Part shown: positions 9,563 to 19,620 of the stretch, piece after piece | How the letters are laid out: every line of letters starts with the position of its first letter | Numbering within the stretch: position 1 is the stretch's first letter | Assembly: GCA_014730275.1 (NCBI GenBank) | Contig: WJIL01000014.1 | Location: forward strand, 1-64,000 | Reading direction: 5' to 3' | Source: Candidatus Lokiarchaeota archaeon | Lineage (GTDB): Archaea > Asgardarchaeota > Thorarchaeia > Thorarchaeales > Thorarchaeaceae | Length of the DNA stretch: 64,000 bases | Position numbers and translations under genes: made by a program | Notes under the pieces: generated by a model | Seen by the model: only the letters and a program-made list of their open reading frames with translations | Told to the model about the DNA's origin: nothing | Database searches by the model: none

Positions 9563-10636
9563 TCAGTTACATCTTCGGAGGAAATCAACCATGACAATTG
9601 CAGCCAAGCATTCCACAACAGGAACAGCTCGGGGAACAATACACGGATCGTGTCGACCCCTTGCGCTCAACTCGATTTCCTGCATCTGTTGCATATCTAT
9701 CGTATTTTGAGGTTTTGAAATAGTAGGAGTTGGCTTAAACGCCACTTTGAATTCCACTTCTGCCCCGTTGGTGATACCTCCTATGATACCCCCTGCGTCA
9801 TTCTTGGTCCAAGCTACTTCGCCGTTGATAATCTCAGCTGGATCATTGTGCTCTGAACCTTTCATTGATGCTGAATCGAAACCCGAACCAAATTCGATTC
9901 CTTTGACTCCTGGAATGCTGAACATTGCGTGACTCATAACACTCTCAATGGAATCAAAGAAGGGTTCTCCCAATCCAATGGGAACTCCACTTATTCTGCA
10001 TTCTACGAGCCCTCCAACAGAATCCCCATTTTGACTCGCCTTCATAACCTGTTCTTCCATTTCCGACACAAGGTTGATGTCAGCACACCTTACAGAATTC
10101 GAGTAGACATGTTTCCGAATCATTTCATTAGGAATCACCGAGTCTACTGCTACCTTCCCAATTCGTACTGTGTGGGCTAGTAGCTCAATCCCTTCTTCCT
10201 CCAAGATGATTTTGGCAATGCTTCCTGCCATAACCAAACCAGCTGTCATTCTTCCAGAAAAAGTACCTCCTCCTCTATGGTCATTATGGCCGTTATACTT
10301 GACTCTAGCTGTGTAATCTGCATGGCCCGGCCTCATAATGTGCTTGGTCCTGTCATACCACGAACTATCCACATCTCGATTGGCGATTGTCATGGTTATG
10401 GGGGCTCCGGTTGTCCTGCCATCCAATACACCGCTATGAATGCGGATTCGGTCACTTTCCTTTCTAGATGAAGCCAGCTTGCTCTTTCCGGGACGACGAC
10501 GGTCTAGTTCCGTCTGTATGTCATTCTCAATTATATCCAGCCCTGGTGGGCATCCATCAACCACAACACCAACGCATTCTCCATGACTCTCACCAAATAG
10601 CTGGATTCTATATCTTTCTCCGAATGAAAAAGTCAC
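9563..10636 (-). CDS. aroC: Chorismate synthase
   Basis: The 357-residue enzyme converts EPSP to chorismate using reduced FMN, the last step of the shikimate pathway. Family motifs are clear: FGESHGECVGVVVDG at the N-terminus, RRRPGKSKLASSRKE, the MRPGHADYT region, HRGGGTFSGR, and GRHDPCIVPRAVPV near the C-terminus. It is the last gene of the operon, starting with GTG 3 bp after the aroA stop codon. Length is normal for the family. Confidence 0.95.
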   Translation of the reverse strand: MTFSFGERYRIQLFGESHGECVGVVVDGCPPGLDIIENDIQTELDRRRPGKSKLASSRKESDRIRIHSGVLDGRTTGAPITMTIANRDVDSSWYDRTKHIMRPGHADYTARVKYNGHNDHRGGGTFSGRMTAGLVMAGSIAKIILEEEGIELLAHTVRIGKVAVDSVIPNEMIRKHVYSNSVRCADINLVSEMEEQVMKASQNGDSVGGLVECRISGVPIGLGEPFFDSIESVMSHAMFSIPGVKGIEFGSGFDSASMKGSEHNDPAEIINGEVAWTKNDAGGIIGGITNGAEVEFKVAFKPTPTISKPQNTIDMQQMQEIELSARGRHDPCIVPRAVPVVECLAAIVMVDFLRRCN

Positions 10637-10638
10637 AA

Positions 10639-11934
10639 TTAACCACCGATTCCATTATCATGTATCAATTCTACTCTCCCACCAATTGACCGGATATCAG
10701 AGATAAAGCTAGGATAGCTCTTCTTAATGCACTCTACATCCCTTACAACGGTTGTATCATCTGCAACTAGTCCAGCAACTATGCCTGCCATGGCAATTCG
10801 ATGGTCCCTGTGTGAATCCAGTATTCTGCCCCGCAATCTACTGGGTCCACGAATTGTCATACCATCTTCGACTTGCTCGATATCACCGCCCATCTTTCTC
10901 AGCTCTTGACTAATCGATGCAAGTCTATCGCTCTCCTTTAGCCGCAAGCGTGCTGCATTAACTATTCGAGTGGTTCCATTAGCTTGAGTTGCTATGACGG
11001 CTAGAATTGGAACCAAATCAGGTACATTCGAAACATCAACAATTACCCCATTCATGTCGTCTTTCTTAACAGAAACATCACTGGCGAATCTGACACATGC
11101 TCCCATTTTCTGAATGATTCGTAGGAATTTCGCATCTCCTTGGAGGGTGCGTCTTCTTAGACCAGAGACAGCAACATCTCCTGCTAGAGCTCCGGCTGCC
11201 AACAAGAAGGAGGCTGATGAATAATCTCCTTCCACTTCGTAATGCCTGGATTGGTAGCTCTGGTTGCCTGGAACCAGAATCTGGTTCCAGTCGTTAGAAA
11301 CTCTTGTTTTCACCCCGAACTGATCCATGATTGCAAGACTCATTCTCACATAAGGCTGAGATTCTAGGTTTCCTTCTATTCGAATGGTGGTGGATTCTCT
11401 TGCTTTGGAGCAGGCAAAGAGGAGAGCGGTTATGTATTGCGAAGAAATATTGCCCGGAACAGTTACCTTACCACCTTTGATGAATCCCCTACCCAGAATC
11501 TGGACTGGCGGTCTTCCGGCCTTACCAAGGAATCGTGTATTAACGCCTAACTGACGTAGCGCACTGACTAGGGGGCCAATGGGTCTTTGTCGTAGGGTTA
11601 TATCACCGGTCAAAACACATTTTCCGTCTACTAATGCTGATAGTGCGCAGAAAATCCTAAGTGTGGTACCTGAACCTTTGCAATCCATTTCTGAAGCAGG
11701 AGCCTTGAGTTGATTGGGTCCTTTGATTCTAATCGTCGTATCTTGCTGAATGTCAGCCCCCATCATTTCACAGATTCTCATTGTTGCTTTTGTATCATCG
11801 CAATAGAGCGGGTTCGAAATAGTGCTAGACCCATTAGACAGAAGTCCACATACAATCGCACGATGAGTGTAGCTCTTGGATGGTGGTGCAGCAGCTTCTC
11901 CAGCAATCACCGATGGATGAACAACAACTCTCAT
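10639..11934 (-). CDS. aroA: 3-phosphoshikimate 1-carboxyvinyltransferase (EPSP synthase)
   Basis: The 431-residue enzyme transfers enolpyruvyl from PEP to shikimate 3-phosphate. Motifs include PPSKSYTHRA at the N-terminus (substrate-binding Lys), GSGTTLRIF, and LKESDRLASI near residue 330. Its ATG overlaps the aroK stop by four bases (ATGA), which indicates translational coupling. Length and domain pattern are those of a complete two-domain enzyme. Confidence 0.95.
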   Translation of the reverse strand: MRVVVHPSVIAGEAAAPPSKSYTHRAIVCGLLSNGSSTISNPLYCDDTKATMRICEMMGADIQQDTTIRIKGPNQLKAPASEMDCKGSGTTLRIFCALSALVDGKCVLTGDITLRQRPIGPLVSALRQLGVNTRFLGKAGRPPVQILGRGFIKGGKVTVPGNISSQYITALLFACSKARESTTIRIEGNLESQPYVRMSLAIMDQFGVKTRVSNDWNQILVPGNQSYQSRHYEVEGDYSSASFLLAAGALAGDVAVSGLRRRTLQGDAKFLRIIQKMGACVRFASDVSVKKDDMNGVIVDVSNVPDLVPILAVIATQANGTTRIVNAARLRLKESDRLASISQELRKMGGDIEQVEDGMTIRGPSRLRGRILDSHRDHRIAMAGIVAGLVADDTTVVRDVECIKKSYPSFISDIRSIGGRVELIHDNGIGG

Positions 11935-12455
11935 AGTTTCAACCTCTCAACGATTATGTATACAGCTTCTTCCACATTCAATTCATCAGTCCATACTTCA
12001 ACGTCCATCATTTCTGTGTAGATTTCATTTCTCTTATTCAAAATCGACTGGACTCTTCTTTCAAGGTCGCCTTCCTCCACGTTGAGTAGTGGTCTTGTTG
12101 CCGATTCAGAAGTTCTTGCAACAATAGTGTCAGCTGATGCCCTTAGCAATACAACAGACACATTCTCCTCTATTAGCCGACGATTTTCGGGTGTAAAGGG
12201 TGCTCCACCTCCAAAACTGATTACCGTTGTTTTGAGACCGCAAACTTCTTTGATAACATCCGATTCCAGCAGACGAAAAGTGTCTTCACCTTCTTCTGAG
12301 AATATTTGAGAGATTTCTTTTCCAGCACGACTTTCAATAATTTCATCCGTATCACAAAATCGCCAACTCAGAACATCAGCCAAGTGTCTGCCAATCGTTG
12401 TTTTGCCTGTGGCCATGAAGCCAATCAGCCCGATATTCATCTGCTTCGGATTCAT
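11931..12455 (-). CDS. aroK: Shikimate kinase, bacterial AroK type
   Basis: The 174-residue P-loop kinase phosphorylates shikimate at O3. It has Walker A GFMATGKTT, the shikimate-binding DTD motif with the following SRAGKEI segment, and the FGGGAP loop. Most archaea instead use a GHMP-superfamily shikimate kinase, so the bacterial form here points to transfer or a clade-specific choice. It overlaps both neighbours by four bases (ATGA). Confidence 0.93.
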   Translation of the reverse strand: MNPKQMNIGLIGFMATGKTTIGRHLADVLSWRFCDTDEIIESRAGKEISQIFSEEGEDTFRLLESDVIKEVCGLKTTVISFGGGAPFTPENRRLIEENVSVVLLRASADTIVARTSESATRPLLNVEEGDLERRVQSILNKRNEIYTEMMDVEVWTDELNVEEAVYIIVERLKL

Positions 12456-13303
12456 TGGGATTCAGCTTCCAATTTCTTGAGTAGTTTATTTCTCATCACA
12501 TCAACAGGTGGTTTCAATCCGGTCCACTTCTCAAAGGATATAGCTCCTTGTTGAATCAAAAGAGCAATACCATCTACTGTCCTGCAACCTACGTTGTTGG
12601 CTTCTTTTAGTAACCTGGTCTCTACGGGGTTATAGATCAAATCCATAACCACCAAGTCATCACGAAGTAGCTCTTTCTTGATGGGTGTTTCACCAACTGA
12701 ATGACCTTTCATACCGACTGGTGTGCAATTCAGAAGTAGGTCGTACTCGCGAAGGGAATCTTCTCTGACGGGAAAAATGGCTGCTGCAAGAGAAGTAGAA
12801 AAAAATTCTTCTAAGTCCTGTACTAATTCCCTTGCTTTTCTGAGTGTGCGATTGTAAATGAGGATGTTCCCTGCCTTAAGACTGGAAAGTGCATAAACTA
12901 CGGATCTTGCAGCTCCGCCTGCGCCTAGGACCACAGCGGAAGCGCCTTCAATTTTAATTTCAGATTCTCTAAAGACACCGAGGAGACCAAGCATATCTGT
13001 GTTGCATCCTACAACCCTTTCATCTTCACGATATAGTGTATTTACAGATCCAATAGACTCTGCCTGCTTGGTCACTTCTGACAAGTGAACCATGATACGC
13101 TGCTTATGTGGTATCGTTATATTCGCACCTTCAAAATCTCCCACCTCAATAGAGTCTACGAAACCAGCCAATTCATCACTCCTGAGTGCCAGAAGACTGT
13201 ATTCATATTCCTGTTGCAAACCAAGAGCCCTGAAGGCTGCATTGTGCATGAGAGGGCTGTAAGAGTGCTTCACTGGATTTCCTGCAAGTACAATACTTTT
13301 CAA
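12452..13303 (-). CDS. aroE: Shikimate dehydrogenase
   Basis: The 283-residue NADP-dependent enzyme reduces 3-dehydroshikimate. It shows KHSYSPLMHNAAF (shikimate-binding Ser pair), NITIPHK with the catalytic Lys, NTDMLG with the catalytic Asp, and the dinucleotide motif GAGGAARS. The C-terminal helix KPPVDVMR is also typical. Four-base overlaps join it to aroD upstream and aroK downstream. Archaea often encode aroE, so this gene alone is not evidence of transfer. Confidence 0.95.
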   Translation of the reverse strand: MKSIVLAGNPVKHSYSPLMHNAAFRALGLQQEYEYSLLALRSDELAGFVDSIEVGDFEGANITIPHKQRIMVHLSEVTKQAESIGSVNTLYREDERVVGCNTDMLGLLGVFRESEIKIEGASAVVLGAGGAARSVVYALSSLKAGNILIYNRTLRKARELVQDLEEFFSTSLAAAIFPVREDSLREYDLLLNCTPVGMKGHSVGETPIKKELLRDDLVVMDLIYNPVETRLLKEANNVGCRTVDGIALLIQQGAISFEKWTGLKPPVDVMRNKLLKKLEAESQ

Positions 13304-13977
13304 GTGAGAACCTCCAGTACATCTCTCATTATTGTTTGTGGAATCTGCCCTGGAGCAGCCTCGCTACCATAATCATGTGAAACATAGGCGAAAGGAGCGC
13401 CCAAGAACAGAGAAAACACCCGCGTGAACTTGCCAAGACGGTCCATAGCAAATGCAATCAAGGGTATCTCTGGTTTTACAGTTGGATGATACAATTCCAG
13501 CGTACGAAGGCAATCGCTCAAAGAGGTCGGTGCGGCAACTATCTTTATGATATCTGGTTGTGCCTGTTCAATCTCTCTGAGGATTTCCTGAAATACCAAT
13601 TCTGAGGGTGTTGAGTTCCAATAATGTTTCGATATGATAAGGCAAGAATCTGTATCCCTTGTGTTTTTCTTGACTGCTTCGAGTAATAGCTTCGAGGTTT
13701 CTAGTTCTACATCGATATAGGAAGCTCCAGCAGAAAGGGCCTTAGCCAGATAGTCAATTCGATCTTCTTCCTGTCCATCAAACAGCCCACCAAATTTCAA
13801 GGGTCTACATGTCGCGATAATAGGCTTTGAAGAAACATCATAGATGTTCTCTAGCTCTTTGATTTGGTCCATATAGTCCATCCGATGTTCAATCAGATCC
13901 CCTTTGCAAGAAGACATCATGTTCATGCACTCCTCTGGAGTTCCCCCCGTGATGGAAACACATAGATTCTTGTTCAT
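13300..13977 (-). CDS. aroD: 3-dehydroquinate dehydratase, type I
   Basis: The 225-residue TIM-barrel enzyme dehydrates 3-dehydroquinate through a Schiff base. Visible are EHRMDYMD near the N-terminus, ATCRP, the catalytic-His segment IISKHYWNSTPS, the Schiff-base Lys in DIIKIVA, and GSEAAPGQI near the end. The His segment differs slightly from the common SYHDF form. It overlaps aroE by four bases and starts 13 bp after the DAHP synthase stop. Confidence 0.92.
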   Translation of the reverse strand: MNKNLCVSITGGTPEECMNMMSSCKGDLIEHRMDYMDQIKELENIYDVSSKPIIATCRPLKFGGLFDGQEEDRIDYLAKALSAGASYIDVELETSKLLLEAVKKNTRDTDSCLIISKHYWNSTPSELVFQEILREIEQAQPDIIKIVAAPTSLSDCLRTLELYHPTVKPEIPLIAFAMDRLGKFTRVFSLFLGAPFAYVSHDYGSEAAPGQIPQTIMRDVLEVLT

Positions 13978-13990
13978 TTGTTATCTCACC

Positions 13991-15070
13991 CTATGTATTC
14001 ACACTATGTAGTGCCTTGCTCTCCACAGGAACGCCATCATCAGTTTCCCCTTGTCTGATATTGAATTGTCTTTGAAGGATATCTCCTGTTTCGATAGTTC
14101 CCATGAGTTCCTTAAACATGTCAAGCGTCAGGGACTGTGCACCATCAACAAGAGCCTCTTGCGGATTGGGATGCACCTCCACCATGATCCCATCAGCCCC
14201 CACGGCTAGTCCACCTAGAGCCAAAGGAATCACTAAGTCTCGATTCCCAGCGGCATGGCTAGGATCAACAATTAGTGGAAGATGTGTCATGGTCCTCAGA
14301 ACCGGTATGCTACTCAAATCGAGTGTATATCGTGTGTGGTTACTATGTGTTCTGATGCCTCGTTCACAGAGGATAACCTTGTGGTTACCTTCCGACATTA
14401 TGTATTCTGCGGCAGCAAGAAGTTCAGTAAGCGTTGCCCACATACCACGCTTCAGCATCACAGGCTTTCGTGATCTTCCTGCTCTTTTGAGAAGTGCATA
14501 ATTCTGCATATTCCTAGCCCCTATTTGGATAATGTCAACAACCGTTTCCACTGCAGGAAAACTTTCTGTATCAAGAGCCTCTGATATGATTGGTAGACCG
14601 GTTTGATGTCTAGCCTCCTCAAGTATCCGCAGGCCTTCAACCCCTAAGCCCTGGAACGAATAGGGTGATGTACGCGGCTTAAATGCGCCACCCCGGAGTA
14701 TATTGGCCCCCATACCTTTCACGGCTTCCGCGGCACCAATAATCTGCTCTCTAGATTCTACTGCGCAGGGTCCAGCGATGATTATTGGGCGATCTACCCC
14801 AATTTCTATGTCTCCGACAGCAATAGAGGTACCTTTTGGGTTGGATTCAATATCAGCGAGCTTATACGGCTTGGTTACCAAAATGACTTCCATTACACCC
14901 GGTAGTCCTTCTAGCCTTTGAGCATCAGCTGTTTCTACCTTTCCTGTAACATTGATTACGGTACGATGTACTCCAGGATTTGTGTGTCCTTTGTAACCCA
15001 ATTTCTCAATAGCATCAATTGCTTCATTCACTTGTAGTTCCGTTGCGTTTCTATGCATCACTATTAGCAA
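13991..15070 (-). CDS. aroF: 3-deoxy-7-phosphoheptulonate (DAHP) synthase with N-terminal regulatory domain
   Basis: The 359-residue protein has an N-terminal ferredoxin-like domain (about residues 1-75), as in Thermotoga-type DAHP synthases where it mediates inhibition by tyrosine or phenylalanine. A KDO8P/DAHP-synthase barrel follows, with AGPCAVES, GGAFKPRTSPYSFQG, QIGARNMQN, RGMWAT and DPSHAAGNR motifs. It condenses PEP with erythrose 4-phosphate. Many archaea lack this step and start from the DKFP route, so its presence beside aroB shows that the classical entry is used here. Confidence 0.93.
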   Translation of the reverse strand: MLIVMHRNATELQVNEAIDAIEKLGYKGHTNPGVHRTVINVTGKVETADAQRLEGLPGVMEVILVTKPYKLADIESNPKGTSIAVGDIEIGVDRPIIIAGPCAVESREQIIGAAEAVKGMGANILRGGAFKPRTSPYSFQGLGVEGLRILEEARHQTGLPIISEALDTESFPAVETVVDIIQIGARNMQNYALLKRAGRSRKPVMLKRGMWATLTELLAAAEYIMSEGNHKVILCERGIRTHSNHTRYTLDLSSIPVLRTMTHLPLIVDPSHAAGNRDLVIPLALGGLAVGADGIMVEVHPNPQEALVDGAQSLTLDMFKELMGTIETGDILQRQFNIRQGETDDGVPVESKALHSVNT

Positions 15071-15092
15071 TTCTATTCTCCACCATTAGATT

Positions 15093-16145
15093 CTAGATAG
15101 ATATCCCATCCACCACTTTCATCTCCACTCGCCCTAATTCAACAAGTATGGGGAGTGAGAGCCCTCCATGCCTGACCTTTTTGTCCTGCTTCATTACATC
15201 CTTGAGATCCTCTTTGGACAATGAAGAAGGAATGACGGTAGGTAAATCAAATGAGCACAACAAAGATTCTAGCTCCTCTAGAAATTGGTTATCTAGAGCA
15301 TCAATTCTTACAGCGTAGCGTGCTTCTTCTAACATTCCGATGGCGACTGCTTCGCCATGTGAGATACTGTGTTCTGAACAGGTTTCGATGGCATGACCAA
15401 CGGTGTGACCGAAATTCAAAATCTGTCTCGTGCCATGTTCAGTTTCGTCTTTCTCCACGATCCGAGCCTTGTTTCTCAAACACCGTTCCACAATGGTCGT
15501 AATTGTTTCCAGGTTTCTCTGAATAATTTCATTCCTTTTTTCTTTCAGCATCTGTAGCAACTTGGGATCCATAATGATGCTGTACTTGATTACTTCTGCA
15601 AGCCCAGTAGCATAGTGATCATCAGACAGGGTTCTTAGAGTAGCCACATCTGCAATGATTCTATGAGGTTGGTAGAACGTACCTACCAGATTCTTACCCC
15701 ACTCTAAGTTCACCGCCGTTTTCCCCCCTAGAGAAGCGTCAACCTGTGCTAGAAGAGTAGTTGGTACCTGTAGTAGCTTCATACCCCTCTTGAATGTAGA
15801 AGCTACAAATCCAGCAAGGTCTCCAATGACTCCACCACCGAGAGCAAGAATTGCATCTGATCTAGATCCCAAATTCTCTCCTAGAAAACAATACAGATTT
15901 TGAGCTCTATCCAACGATTTAGTGGATTCACCGGACGGGAGAATCTTGGTACTAATTTCAATCTCTGAATTTTGAAGAGCTTCCAATACAGGTTTCAGAT
16001 GAATATTGGATACGATGTCATCTGTCACTATGAATACTCTATCCGTTTCTTGATCTAGAATTTGATCCAGTATGGGCAAAAGCGCGTGTCCTACGTGAAC
16101 TGGATACTCCCTAGACTTCGTTCTTACGTGAAAAGAGGTTTCCAT
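15093..16145 (-). CDS. aroB: 3-dehydroquinate synthase
   Basis: The 350-residue NAD- and metal-dependent enzyme cyclises DAHP to dehydroquinate. Motifs include SGESTKS, ALGGGVIGDLAGFVAS, VPTTLLAQVDASLGGKTAVN and the metal-binding GHTVGHAIE. Its ATG shares one base with the tyrA stop (TAATG), and DAHP synthase follows 22 bp downstream. This is the classical bacterial/plant enzyme, not the archaeal AroB' (DHQ synthase II). Confidence 0.95.
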   Translation of the reverse strand: METSFHVRTKSREYPVHVGHALLPILDQILDQETDRVFIVTDDIVSNIHLKPVLEALQNSEIEISTKILPSGESTKSLDRAQNLYCFLGENLGSRSDAILALGGGVIGDLAGFVASTFKRGMKLLQVPTTLLAQVDASLGGKTAVNLEWGKNLVGTFYQPHRIIADVATLRTLSDDHYATGLAEVIKYSIIMDPKLLQMLKEKRNEIIQRNLETITTIVERCLRNKARIVEKDETEHGTRQILNFGHTVGHAIETCSEHSISHGEAVAIGMLEEARYAVRIDALDNQFLEELESLLCSFDLPTVIPSSLSKEDLKDVMKQDKKVRHGGLSLPILVELGRVEMKVVDGISI

Positions 16146-17032
16146 TATCTCTTCCCCTCCGGAGCCTTGTGTTGTTCCATGAAATCCAGGATATGATACA
16201 TATCGTGATATGCTCTAGCTGAATCCATACTCCTTTCGAGAGCAGCTTTGATGCTCTCATAGGATTCCTGAAATCCAGCTTGATCCCACTGTATGAGGGG
16301 CTCCAGCAAGCTTTCAATTCTGGAGGAGAGGCTGGTCAGGATATCCATCGCATACTTATTCAATCTGTGAAGATGATAATGCAAGTCAGTAGATTGGGCC
16401 ATAATACTTCCAGTCAATACAGTCTGAATTTCGAAGGTTGTTCCACCAATCTGTTTCAACACTTGGACATCTTCTTTCGCCAGTACTGAAGCCAGAACCA
16501 TGTTCATGAAATATGGCAGTGAGAGGGTAAGAGCCATTATTTGGTCATGGCGGTCTGCCTCGACAGTGATGATTGCAGTGTTTGGGAACAAGCTTTCCAC
16601 TACTTCTTGTTCGTTCTCGGAGTCAATTATTGGAATCAATAGGATTTTCTTACGCAATGACTGAGCTCCAGGTCCAAACATCGGATGAATACTTAATGGA
16701 CGAATGTCATGGTTGGTCAATTCTTCGAGAGCATCGACTAAATTCATCTTTAGAGAAGATATCTCACACAGGGTAGATTTTCTTTTCATGTGCGGGATTA
16801 CTTCCCGAATGACACCCGCAGTTTTATTCATGGGTACTGACACAACAACCAGTTCTGCGTTATTCACTGCCGTTTTGTTGTCAGACGTTACCCTGATATC
16901 ACATGACTGGGGAAGCTTTCCCAGTTCCGGAGTTTGCGGATCAGATATGACCAAAGAACGGTTTTGTCCTGCAAAATGTCTGGTTAGCCAACAACCCATA
17001 TTTCCGGCTCCGCCAAGTATCGCTATTGTCAT
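16145..17032 (-). CDS. tyrA: Prephenate dehydrogenase
   Basis: The 295-residue protein has an N-terminal Rossmann motif (ILGGAGNMG), a SVPMNKT segment, and the SIHPMFGPG motif typical of TyrA active sites, followed by an all-helical dimerisation domain. It oxidises prephenate (or arogenate) toward tyrosine. No ACT domain is seen, so tyrosine feedback would fall on DAHP synthase or on the operon leader. It overlaps the upstream fusion gene by four bases. Confidence 0.9.
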   Translation of the reverse strand: MTIAILGGAGNMGCWLTRHFAGQNRSLVISDPQTPELGKLPQSCDIRVTSDNKTAVNNAELVVVSVPMNKTAGVIREVIPHMKRKSTLCEISSLKMNLVDALEELTNHDIRPLSIHPMFGPGAQSLRKKILLIPIIDSENEQEVVESLFPNTAIITVEADRHDQIMALTLSLPYFMNMVLASVLAKEDVQVLKQIGGTTFEIQTVLTGSIMAQSTDLHYHLHRLNKYAMDILTSLSSRIESLLEPLIQWDQAGFQESYESIKAALERSMDSARAYHDMYHILDFMEQHKAPEGKR

Positions 17033-18426
17033 TCTAACATCTCTCCAATTCTACGAACAGCTTCAATCAATACTTGCTTCTCTTGGCACAGAGCGATTCT
17101 GAAAAACGAAGAATAGCGGCGCCCATAGATTGTCCCTGGTACAATACACACCCCCTTTTCTTCAAGCAAATGCTCGGCAAAATCCACACTATCAAGTTCT
17201 TTATTCTGAAATTGTGGGAAGAAGTAGAATCCTCCGTCTGGAGGATAGAAGGAAACAGGCAGTTCTTTGAGCAATCCATTCATCGCTTTGGATCGTGATT
17301 CAATTACCCCCACGTTGTGTTTCACTTCATCCTTGCTATCTAACGCACCGAGACCAGAATACTGTACAAACTCTGGCACGCTAGTTAGTAGTAACCCTTG
17401 CAGCTTTGCCATCATATTGATTGTCTTAGTATTTGAAATAGCGAATCCCAGTCTGAAACCAGTCATTCCATACGTCTTGGAAAATGACTGCACACAGACA
17501 TAGCTGCACTTTGGGTGCTCTAGAATACTTGTGTAATGAGATTGAGTGAACCTTGAGTATACTTCATCGCTAAGTACAAAGATATCATGATCATTGGCAA
17601 GACCCACAATTCTCCTAAATACCGACTCATCCAGTACTTTTCCAGTTGGATTGGAAGGACTGTTCAAGATAATAGCCTTAGTTGTAGGATTAATCTGTTG
17701 TTCGAGTTCACTTATCTCTGGTTCCCAAAAGTCCTCAAGCTCAGTTGAAAGGGAAACAGGACGGCCACCTACCTCGGTAACGAATCGGGAGTATGCGGGA
17801 TAGGATGGCTCCAGAATTATGACTTCATCACCAGCTTGTACAACTGAAGATACTGCTAGAAAGAGTGCTAGCCTGCCTCCAGCTGTTACTATGACCTCGT
17901 CAGCTGAAATCTGTCTAGAATATCTCTGATTGAATACATCAGCAATCTTCCTTCTGAGTAGAAGGATTCCTTGGGATTCTGTATAACCCACATCACCTCT
18001 GCTCAAGGCCTTCATGAGTTTTCTTCTTGCTTGATTTGGAGGGGCAAAATCAGGCTCCCCAACCTCAAGATGGAGAATATGCTTTCCAGCATTGTTCATA
18101 CGCCTTGCCTTAGAAAAAATCTCAGCAACACTTGGGGGAGAATTAACTGGGTTTCTTTCCAATTGGACTTGGACAGACTCTTGGATTAGCTGATTGAGTA
18201 TTCTCAGGGCAAATCTGGCATCGAGATTTCGCCCACTGCACATTTCAATGACGTTATTCTGAAGGTGCCGCTCTACATCCCTGTTAATTACGGAGATACC
18301 CTCTCTTTCCTTCTCTTCAGAAACCTTCCGAACCAGTGAAAGGCGTTTATCAATTAGGGAAAAAATCTCATGCGTTGTTCGCTCTATTTCCTTTCTAAGG
18401 GAAGAAAGTCGTGAATTACTTCTCAT
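17029..18426 (-). CDS. Chorismate mutase-aminotransferase fusion
   Basis: Residues 1-90 form an AroQ-type helical chorismate mutase domain (LRKEIERTTHEIF, LIDKRLSLVRKV). From about residue 100 a class I PLP aminotransferase follows (LEVGEPDFAPP, SPSNPTG, and the PLP-Lys segment SFSKTYGMTGFR). The first domain makes prephenate. The second likely aminates prephenate or 4-hydroxyphenylpyruvate for tyrosine; which one is inference. It is the first gene of the nine-gene operon, with a long structured leader upstream. Prephenate dehydratase is not in the cluster. Confidence 0.9.
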   Translation of the reverse strand: MRSNSRLSSLRKEIERTTHEIFSLIDKRLSLVRKVSEEKEREGISVINRDVERHLQNNVIEMCSGRNLDARFALRILNQLIQESVQVQLERNPVNSPPSVAEIFSKARRMNNAGKHILHLEVGEPDFAPPNQARRKLMKALSRGDVGYTESQGILLLRRKIADVFNQRYSRQISADEVIVTAGGRLALFLAVSSVVQAGDEVIILEPSYPAYSRFVTEVGGRPVSLSTELEDFWEPEISELEQQINPTTKAIILNSPSNPTGKVLDESVFRRIVGLANDHDIFVLSDEVYSRFTQSHYTSILEHPKCSYVCVQSFSKTYGMTGFRLGFAISNTKTINMMAKLQGLLLTSVPEFVQYSGLGALDSKDEVKHNVGVIESRSKAMNGLLKELPVSFYPPDGGFYFFPQFQNKELDSVDFAEHLLEEKGVCIVPGTIYGRRYSSFFRIALCQEKQVLIEAVRRIGEMLE

Positions 18427-18433
18427 GGGTTAG

Positions 18434-18493
18434 TATCTCAGCTCCCTGTCTATTATCCAGAATACGGCTGGTATAGACAGTATAGCTGAGATA
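18434..18493 (-). promoter_or_regulatory. Long hairpin over the ribosome-binding region of the aro operon
   Basis: Read on the minus strand, a nearly continuous stem forms from three perfect arms: 10 bp (18434-18443 with 18484-18493), 8 bp (18446-18453 with 18473-18480) and 4 bp (18457-18460 with 18468-18471), separated by small internal loops. The 3' arm holds the GGGAG and GAG purine motifs that precede the ATG of the first operon gene by 15 and 10 nt. Folding would hide them and reduce translation. This suggests attenuation or a riboswitch-like control. Confidence 0.6.
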
Positions 18494-18657
18494 GTCAAGT
18501 GCGCCTGACCTAGAATGTAGTCGATGTGTGACCCTTGTTTGTTGGAGAGTTATGGAGTTGACTTTTGATATCATCGGAAAGCACCAGAAAGAATCTACCT
18601 TACAACCAAATGAAATGGCTGGTCGTGATCTCTCGGTGTTATGCACCATAGCTATAA

Positions 18658-18706
18658 GAACCACTATACAGAACGGGCTGTCCCGTCGAGTATAGCCAGA
18701 TGGTTC
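18658..18706 (-). promoter_or_regulatory. Second hairpin in the aro operon leader
   Basis: Three nested perfect arms are seen: GAACCA/TGGTTC (18658-18663 with 18701-18706), CTATAC/GTATAG (18664-18669 with 18690-18695) and ACGGG/CCCGT (18673-18677 with 18682-18686) closing a CTGT loop. One side carries a five-base bulge. It lies near the predicted 5' end of the transcript. It shares the element GTATAGC-x-x-AGAT with the start-proximal hairpin, so the two could form alternative pairs. Confidence 0.5.
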
Positions 18707-18755
18707 CAATTAGATGCATTGAGAGATTCACTAATTCAATTTCCCATACTTGTAT

Positions 18756-18764
18756 CTTTTATAC
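18756..18764 (-). promoter_or_regulatory. TATA box of the aro operon
   Basis: On the minus strand the sequence reads GAAAGTATAAAAG, a BRE-like purine run followed by a TATA element. Initiation about 25 bp downstream would give a start near 18733 and a leader of about 300 nt, unusually long for archaea. The rest of the gap 18427-18900 holds the two hairpins and no supported gene. Confidence 0.55.
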
Positions 18765-18900
18765 TTTCTCCCTAGAAAGGCCCTGTGTAAAAAGTCATAC
18801 CAACGTATCGGAGTGATTCATATTGTTGTTCCTGTTGTCAGGATACGTGCGTTTGAATAGCGAATTGACAGCTCATTTGAGCTTCTCACAACAATTCCGC

Positions 18901-19002: not shown

Positions 19003-19620
19003 TTACAGATGCATCAAAACAAGCCGAACAGCGCGGAGAGACATTTCAAACGGCATCGTGGGTAGACTCATTTTGTCATTCTCAATTGCCTGTTCAGGCA
19101 TACATGGAACATGAATGAAGCCGGCTTTGGAATCGTGCAATCCTCTGTCAATCATCTGGAGAACATGGAATAGAACAAGATTACAGCCATAGATTCCAGC
19201 ATCATAACTGATGTATGCGGGAATCCCGTTTTTTCGAAGTAATGAAACAAGCTGAGCCAAATCAAGATTCGAAAAATAGGCTGCAGGCGCGTCGGAATCG
19301 ATTACGTCAGTTGAAGGCTTATTCCCATAGTTATCTTCCCGCTTGGTGTTCACTGCATTTTTTGCAAGTCGCTCAAGCGAGATGGCAGCTCGACTTGCTT
19401 GCCCCATACAGAGAATCACGTCAGGTTTTATCGAGGTTACTAGAGACTTGATTCTCTCCGGCACGAATTTGTAATCCAGCGGCAATTCAACACCTTTGAC
19501 GACGTAGCTTCCAGTATCCTGCCCGTCTAATTCTTTGGCAATCTCTGCCGATGGATTGACTGAATATTCGTCAAATGGCTCATATCCTGTGACTAGAGCA
19601 ATTGGTGAATCAGGAGACAT
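19003..19620 (-). CDS. pcp: Pyroglutamyl-peptidase I (C15 family)
   Basis: The 205-residue cytosolic cysteine peptidase removes N-terminal pyroglutamate. The family motifs are VTGYEPFDEYSVNPS at the N-terminus, the catalytic Glu in SLERLAKN, the catalytic Cys in DAGIYGCNLVLFH, and the catalytic His in FIHVPCMPEQ. Length is normal. It precedes the aro operon on the same strand but has its own 3' end well before the aro TATA box. Confidence 0.92.
   Translation of the reverse strand: MSPDSPIALVTGYEPFDEYSVNPSAEIAKELDGQDTGSYVVKGVELPLDYKFVPERIKSLVTSIKPDVILCMGQASRAAISLERLAKNAVNTKREDNYGNKPSTDVIDSDAPAAYFSNLDLAQLVSLLRKNGIPAYISYDAGIYGCNLVLFHVLQMIDRGLHDSKAGFIHVPCMPEQAIENDKMSLPTMPFEMSLRAVRLVLMHL

Follow-up and report, generated by a model that had tools for sequence, protein, structure and literature searches.

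Codon-sensing leader peptides are a textbook means of bacterial control over amino-acid synthesis. In translational attenuators such as the ermC and cat leaders, a ribosome stalled on the leader peptide frees a masked ribosome site. Among archaea, the trp genes of haloarchaea may already have prompted suggestions of attenuation. T-box leaders sense tRNA charging before amino-acid genes, and trp-type transcription attenuators carry an intrinsic terminator before the first gene. Bacterial leader-peptide attenuators in general (trpL, pheL, hisL, and Corynebacterium ilvBNC, PMC11857589) have a short ORF as the first of the transcript, enrichment in codons of the product amino acid, and alternative helices, with transcription read-through as their output. 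Structured archaeal 5' leaders have been described as candidate riboswitches (fluoride, preQ1; PMC4247193), and the same source stated in 2014 that direct experimental support for attenuators in archaea was absent. Termination-reinitiation coupling at overlapping genes has been demonstrated in Haloferax volcanii (PMC6728339). Our own literature search for archaeal leader peptides and attenuation found no archaeal case, with partial coverage, so that absence is not proof.

The leader described here lies ahead of an aromatic operon in a window of 64,000 nucleotides, the whole stretch of DNA that was analysed, from an Asgard archaeal contig. It shares the short first ORF, the enrichment in codons of the product amino acid, and, by prediction, the alternative helices of the bacterial leader-peptide attenuators, but it is archaeal, lacks an intrinsic terminator, and seems to have the translation of a second ORF as its output. 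As with the ermC and cat leaders, our proposal has a ribosome stalled on the leader peptide unmask a ribosome site, although the signal would be the supply of Tyr-tRNA instead of a drug and the site would be that of a relay ORF. As in the Haloferax coupling, one frame stops on or beside the start codon of the following one, though here the first of the two is no ordinary gene but a leader ORF with little conservation. The likeness to T-box leaders ends with the absence of a T-box match and the presence of a conserved translated frame, and, in contrast to the archaeal candidate riboswitches, what has been conserved is a reading frame, with no aptamer-like core. We consider it likely that this leader is a leader-peptide attenuator for tyrosine that works at the level of translation by way of a relay ORF. 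The features on which this reading draws are as follows.

18757..18770, minus strand: BRE/TATA promoter element, GAGAAAG TATAAAA, from the sequence, with TATAAAA at 18763-18757.
18639..18731, minus strand: ORF1, from GTG 18731 or ATG 18719 to TAA 18641-18639.
18713..18727, minus strand: 5' strand of helix P1 (P1a AUCUCUC 18727-18721, P1b AUGCAUC 18719-18713), overlapping the ORF1 start.
18658..18706, minus strand: P2 hairpin within ORF1 (P2a GAACCA/UGGUUC, P2b CUAUAC/GUAUAG, P2c GACGGG/CCCGUU), from folds and cross-genus comparison.
18648..18668, minus strand: tyrosine-codon cluster of ORF1, UAU AGU GGU UCU UAU AGC UAU, from cross-genus conservation.
18625..18647, minus strand: 3' strand of P1 (P1b 18647-18641, P1a 18634-18628) with strand X (18638-18625), from folds.
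18602..18626, minus strand: P3 hairpin (ACGACCA/UGGUUGU); most relatives have a hairpin here, of unrelated sequence.
18572..18589, minus strand: ribosome site and start of ORF2, TTCTGGTG, with a Shine-Dalgarno-like GGTG at 18585-18582 and ATG at 18574-18572.
18416..18574, minus strand: ORF2, a 52-codon relay ORF that runs into the enzyme start codon, from its stop position in all seven leaders.
18434..18493, minus strand: hairpin 2, within ORF2, covering purine-rich sequence ahead of the main start, with 10 + 8 perfect pairs.
17029..18426, minus strand: chorismate mutase-aminotransferase fusion, the first enzyme gene (Pfam CM_2 + Aminotran_1_2).
9563..17032, minus strand: remaining operon, prephenate dehydrogenase to chorismate synthase (Pfam as far as aroK, the last two by sequence reading).
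19003-19620, minus strand: pyroglutamyl peptidase gene (PF01470), upstream and on the same strand as the operon.

The source genome (G000) comprises 3.64 Mb in 151 contigs and is rated 99.5% complete. The two-domain gelsolin 2DGel3 is, we presume, a Thorarchaeota protein; that of G000 resembles solved 2DGel3 proteins (7c2h, E 1e-104), which, taken with a promoter of archaeal type, indicates an Asgard archaeon. Downstream of the fusion gene, Pfam places prephenate dehydrogenase, aroB, DAHP synthase, aroD, aroE, and aroK in that order, followed by ORFs that read from their sequence as EPSP synthase and then chorismate synthase. These nine genes form an operon for tyrosine synthesis, from DAHP synthase to the tyrosine aminotransferase step, and the leader directly adjoins them. 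G000 gave no match to TrpE (PF04715) or to prephenate dehydratase (PF00800), both of which were found in 14 of 14 control genomes; across the family, TrpE is present in 3 of 47 genomes and prephenate dehydratase in 2 of 47. By the usual routes G000 can probably make neither Trp nor Phe, and, since both enzymes went undetected in a genome rated so complete, tyrosine is probably the sole aromatic amino acid obtained from the operon's pathway. An earlier note, made from the DNA letters of this region, had suggested that the leader senses tyrosine, chorismate, or another aromatic product, a range that now narrows to tyrosine. Between the pyroglutamyl peptidase gene and the TATA box, large indels separate G000 from G001, a genome of the same genus.

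A chorismate mutase-aminotransferase gene was detected in 7 of the 47 family genomes, spread over four genera (G000, G001, G025, G006, G062, G007, and G008; genera g1, that of G000, g6, g7, and g8), and an equivalent of ORF1 stands upstream of every one of them. In all seven leaders the ORF1 ATG is preceded, at a distance of 31-44 nt, by a TATA-like box (TATAAAA, TATATTA, or TATAATA). In G000 the GTG and ATG are 32 and 44 nt downstream of the box, giving 30 and 26 codons, respectively. An in-frame start occurs 31-32 nt past the box in six leaders, GTG being the TATA-proximal one in G000, G001, and G007, and 41 nt past it in G008; by this spacing, a short ORF directly follows the promoter in all seven. 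The peptides read MHLIGTIWLYSTGQPVLYSGSYSYGA in G000 (26 aa, from ATG), MHLIGTIWLYLTGKPCLYSGSYSYGA in G001, MKILTENAVATSIYMTVDCQYSGFYYSYQ in G025, MKILTENAVATSIYMTVVCQYSGVYYSYH in G006, MIILTENAVATLTYMTVDCQYSGFYYSYQ in G062, MNRGIATNIVATGRTCRYSGYYRYYL in G007, and MRNHMLGGLDHSMVFYHSYRDHR in G008. What they keep is a tyrosine cluster followed by a nearby stop (UAA, UAG, or UGA), while most other residues vary. The cluster is YSGxYYSY-like in the six leaders of g1, g6, and g7, and FYHSY in G008, the weakest case with two Tyr. The enrichment in tyrosine codons is thus conserved in relatives. The window contains 433 ORFs that start with ATG and run for 20-35 codons, and ORF1 alone among them has at least three Tyr in its last nine residues. 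Peptide-level codon bias is absent from both ORF1 and ORF2.

The second frame, ORF2, begins behind a TTYTGGTG (18589-18582) that is identical in all seven leaders, and the 3' end of the 16S rRNA, GGATCACCTCCTA, can pair with its GGTG. This conserved stretch is longer than a GGTG ribosome site requires, and its UGGU is also complementary to the tRNA 3' ACCA. ORF2 spans 36-52 codons across the genomes, and in all seven it terminates no more than about 12 nt from where the enzyme gene starts (-2 to about +11); for G008 the distance is counted to a TTG that follows a GGAGGT by 7 nt. Shuffling puts the joint chance of such proximity over four lineages at about 2e-5, uncorrected for start choice. 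The stop of ORF2 therefore abuts or overlaps the downstream start, the arrangement of translationally coupled genes. At the G008 locus (L007) the TTG is probably the true start of the chorismate mutase-aminotransferase gene, and its GGAGGT sits within a strong hairpin, CTCCCTC...GAGGGAG.

The leader as a whole is both structured and conserved. Its predicted fold reaches -104 kcal/mol, against -78.8 +/- 4.8 kcal/mol for shuffled sequence (z -5.3). The leader of G001 is 89% identical to that of G000 and becomes unalignable just upstream of the TATA box, and G001 was the only match when the leader DNA was searched for in 59 relatives. More distant leaders keep the helices in different letters. 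P1, which encloses most of ORF1, with P2 inside that frame, changes in step on both strands: across genera, P1a reads AUCUCUC/GAGAGAU, UCUUGAC/GUCAAGA, and CGUUUCGA/UCGAGACG, P2a reads GAACCA/UGGUUC and AGCCAC/GUGGCU, and P2c reads GACGGG/CCCGUU, UGACAG/CUGUCA, and CGACAGG/CCUGUCG. The strands of P1, P2a, P2c, and P3 pair at 83-100% of positions within a species and at 37-60% when strands are mixed between species, counts that lean towards structure, as the helices were aligned by hand across the seven leaders. We relied on this comparison because MAFFT with RNAalifold misaligned P1 and misplaced G008. These in-step changes in P1 and P2 between genera constitute covariation, obtained by computation. 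Against shuffles, the P1 duplex is significant in G000, G001, G025, and G007 (p<=0.012) and weaker in G006, G062, and G008. In G062, P1b, P2b, and P3 contain mismatches and P3 is weak; in G008 an equivalent of P3 was not established. Between G000 and G001, two of 31 differences fall within 88 core-stem bases and both leave G-U pairs (p=0.003, for stems picked after seeing the data; p=0.44 for all stems).

Hairpin 2 has a narrower distribution. The fold of the ORF2 region gives z scores of -4.6 in G000, -4.5 in G001, and -2.7 in G008, and no such structure appears in g6 or g7; in g1 and g8, a strong hairpin inside ORF2 lies over the main ribosome region. All 36 stem bases of hairpin 2 are identical in G001, although its loop has diverged. 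Tyrosine codons of ORF2 occur in the 5' arm of hairpin 2 (18493-18471, DYLSYTVYT), and ORF2 holds five Tyr in G001 and two in G008. Given such codons, sensing may conceivably have a second step in g1 and g8. Pairing of hairpin 1 with hairpin 2 through their shared GCTATA motif was considered as a switch and rejected, being impossible in g6 and g7, which are without hairpin 2.

Much of what the earlier note had reported for the leader holds. The BRE/TATA element that it set about 330 bp upstream of ATG 18426 is present at 18770-18757, its strongly structured leader is the one with the z score given above, and the conservation or compensatory change of hairpins in close relatives, which it had named as a check, was looked for and the element survived. 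Other parts need revision. The 10 and 8 perfect pairs of hairpin 2 and its cover of the purine-rich stretch stand, but the inner helix of 4 pairs is not conserved in G001, and the hairpin ends 7 nt, not 10 nt, before the ATG. The motif common to both hairpins is there with unequal spacing, GTATAGC-C-AGAT in hairpin 1 and GTATAGC-TG-AGAT in hairpin 2. A frame running from TTG 18709 to 18416 is indeed open in G000, but a deletion of 1 nt (at 18622) breaks it in G001, and its conserved part is only the 3' portion from ATG 18574, which is ORF2. As a leader peptide this frame was accordingly set aside, the sensing ORF lying upstream in another frame. Missing from the note were ORF1, the covarying helix P1, and the ORF2 start together with its Shine-Dalgarno-like GGTG.

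We hypothesize that these elements work as a sensor and a relay. Transcription would begin about 25 nt past the TATA box, and since it is placed there, ORF1 would be the first, nearly leaderless gene, whose ribosomes would reach the tyrosine cluster shortly before terminating. When Tyr-tRNA is plentiful, ORF1 would be completed and fresh ribosomes would keep loading on its start region, which is the 5' strand of P1; strand X, freed from P1, could then pair with the ribosome site of ORF2 (SD2) in a helix that we call P4, turning ORF2 off. When Tyr-tRNA runs short, a ribosome would stall at the last tyrosine codons while its front reaches X, some 12 nt further downstream, and because of that position P4 could not close, or else P1 would form behind the ribosome; in either case ORF2 would be translated. 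Ribosomes terminating at the enzyme start codon would hand on translation by coupling, and in the genus of G000 the translation of ORF2 would also open hairpin 2.

Folding bears on the exchange of P1 and P4, which have X in common, in several ways. When the RNA is folded from the ORF1 stop, so that the 5' strand of P1 is absent, pairing of X with SD2 is predicted in G000, G001, G006, G062, and G007, and when it is folded from just past the last tyrosine codon, some such pairing appears in all seven; it exceeds shuffled controls only in G006, G062, and G007, and masking of SD2 does so only in G008. In the drawn folds of g1, g6, and g7 the distance to P4, counted from the first base of the final tyrosine codon, is 12 nt (7-12 nt when scripted). 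The sole consistent effect is that blocking the 5' strand of P1 lowers SD2 accessibility in six of seven leaders. A thermodynamic scan of ribosome positions gave no opening of SD2 with a ribosome on the tyrosine codons, the accessibility in G000 falling from 0.51 to 0.28-0.35, and lent the proposed direction of the switch no support. We infer the transcription start and the stalling, and we draw the exchange and its direction from the logic of the pathway, in which a shortage of tyrosine should turn biosynthesis on; the exact P1/P4 mechanism is a tentative suggestion that we would place somewhat short of even.

A complex covarying fold upstream of an aromatic operon, in which P1 and P4 are predicted as alternatives, would also suit a ligand-binding riboswitch, with P1-P2 as an aptamer for tyrosine or another aromatic, P1/P4 as the expression platform, and ORF1 incidental. 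The earlier note had left the choice between attenuator and riboswitch; the tyrosine-rich ORF1, the tyrosine operon, and the covarying helices bear out the former, and we regard the latter as unlikely. An Rfam search of the leader found no family, its matches being at chance level and all outside the leader. The P2 loops and the P1/P2 junction are not conserved between leaders; strongly conserved unpaired letters are limited to the tyrosine codons and the ORF2 ribosome site, TTYTGGTG-ATG, and a search for an aptamer-like core beyond coding or ribosome binding found none, the TTY part being the one stretch that these two roles do not cover. Moreover, the spacings inside the tyrosine block change by whole codons while the ORF1 start and stop are kept, and if P1 were the ligand-bound state, tyrosine would switch the operon on. 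A T-box-like element could instead bind uncharged tRNA-Tyr through a UAU codon in a loop and pairing of UGGU with the 3' ACCA, and the UAU codons unpaired between P2 and P1, together with a conservation of UUYUGGUG beyond the need of a GGUG ribosome site, would fit. A T-box covariance model gave no match at E up to 5, and several tyrosine codons lie in a conserved frame where a T-box would have one specifier, which makes this reading very unlikely.

Retention of both frames in seven genomes might mean that ORF1, ORF2, or both encode small functional proteins, with the structure merely tuning their translation. We hold this to be highly improbable: outside the tyrosine cluster the residues of ORF1 vary freely, the genera do not share a conserved ORF2 sequence, and the changes in ORF2 that separate G000 from G001 fall evenly on the three codon positions (6/8/6). 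The leader might also serve chiefly for RNA stability or for a regulatory protein that binds the repeated hairpin motif, ORF1 translation being unrelated; the strength of hairpin 2 and the GCTATA-type motif common to both hairpins in the genus of G000 speak for this, but g6 and g7 keep ORF1 and ORF2 without hairpin 2 or the shared motif, and we judge it quite unlikely. A trp-type design is disfavoured in its turn by the absence of any terminator-like site at 18380-18800, in a scan confined to terminators of the intrinsic type.

An RNA model built from six leaders and run on 228 genomes of the phylum recovered its source loci at E <= 5e-23, with the next match at 0.017; it gave no further convincing copy and did not reach G008. 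At chorismate mutase loci in other families of the phylum, no Tyr-rich leader of the same architecture was seen, and a protein scan of genome contigs returned just a distant Lachnospiraceae protein. Leaders ahead of trpE, prephenate dehydratase, and hisG were examined for analogues, none convincing. Two g9 genomes (G009 and G019; L095, ~900-1350, and L096) have a long, well-conserved stretch upstream of hisG that is possibly another leader; a small ORF, MDTHHWRWRRHATWRNQVA, lies in the interval separating hisG from the gene before it.

The two ORFs, the conserved tyrosine codons, the covariation in P1 and P2, the stop-start overlap, and the tyrosine operon are all computed from the genomes. 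We lean, by a little over an even chance, towards this being the first leader-peptide attenuator in Archaea, with a tyrosine-codon sensor acting wholly at translation through an ORF2 relay coupled to the enzyme. If so, it would add a sensor-relay-enzyme layout to the known designs of attenuators, and this conserved Asgard-type example would suggest that archaeal ribosomes, too, may serve as sensors of amino acids.
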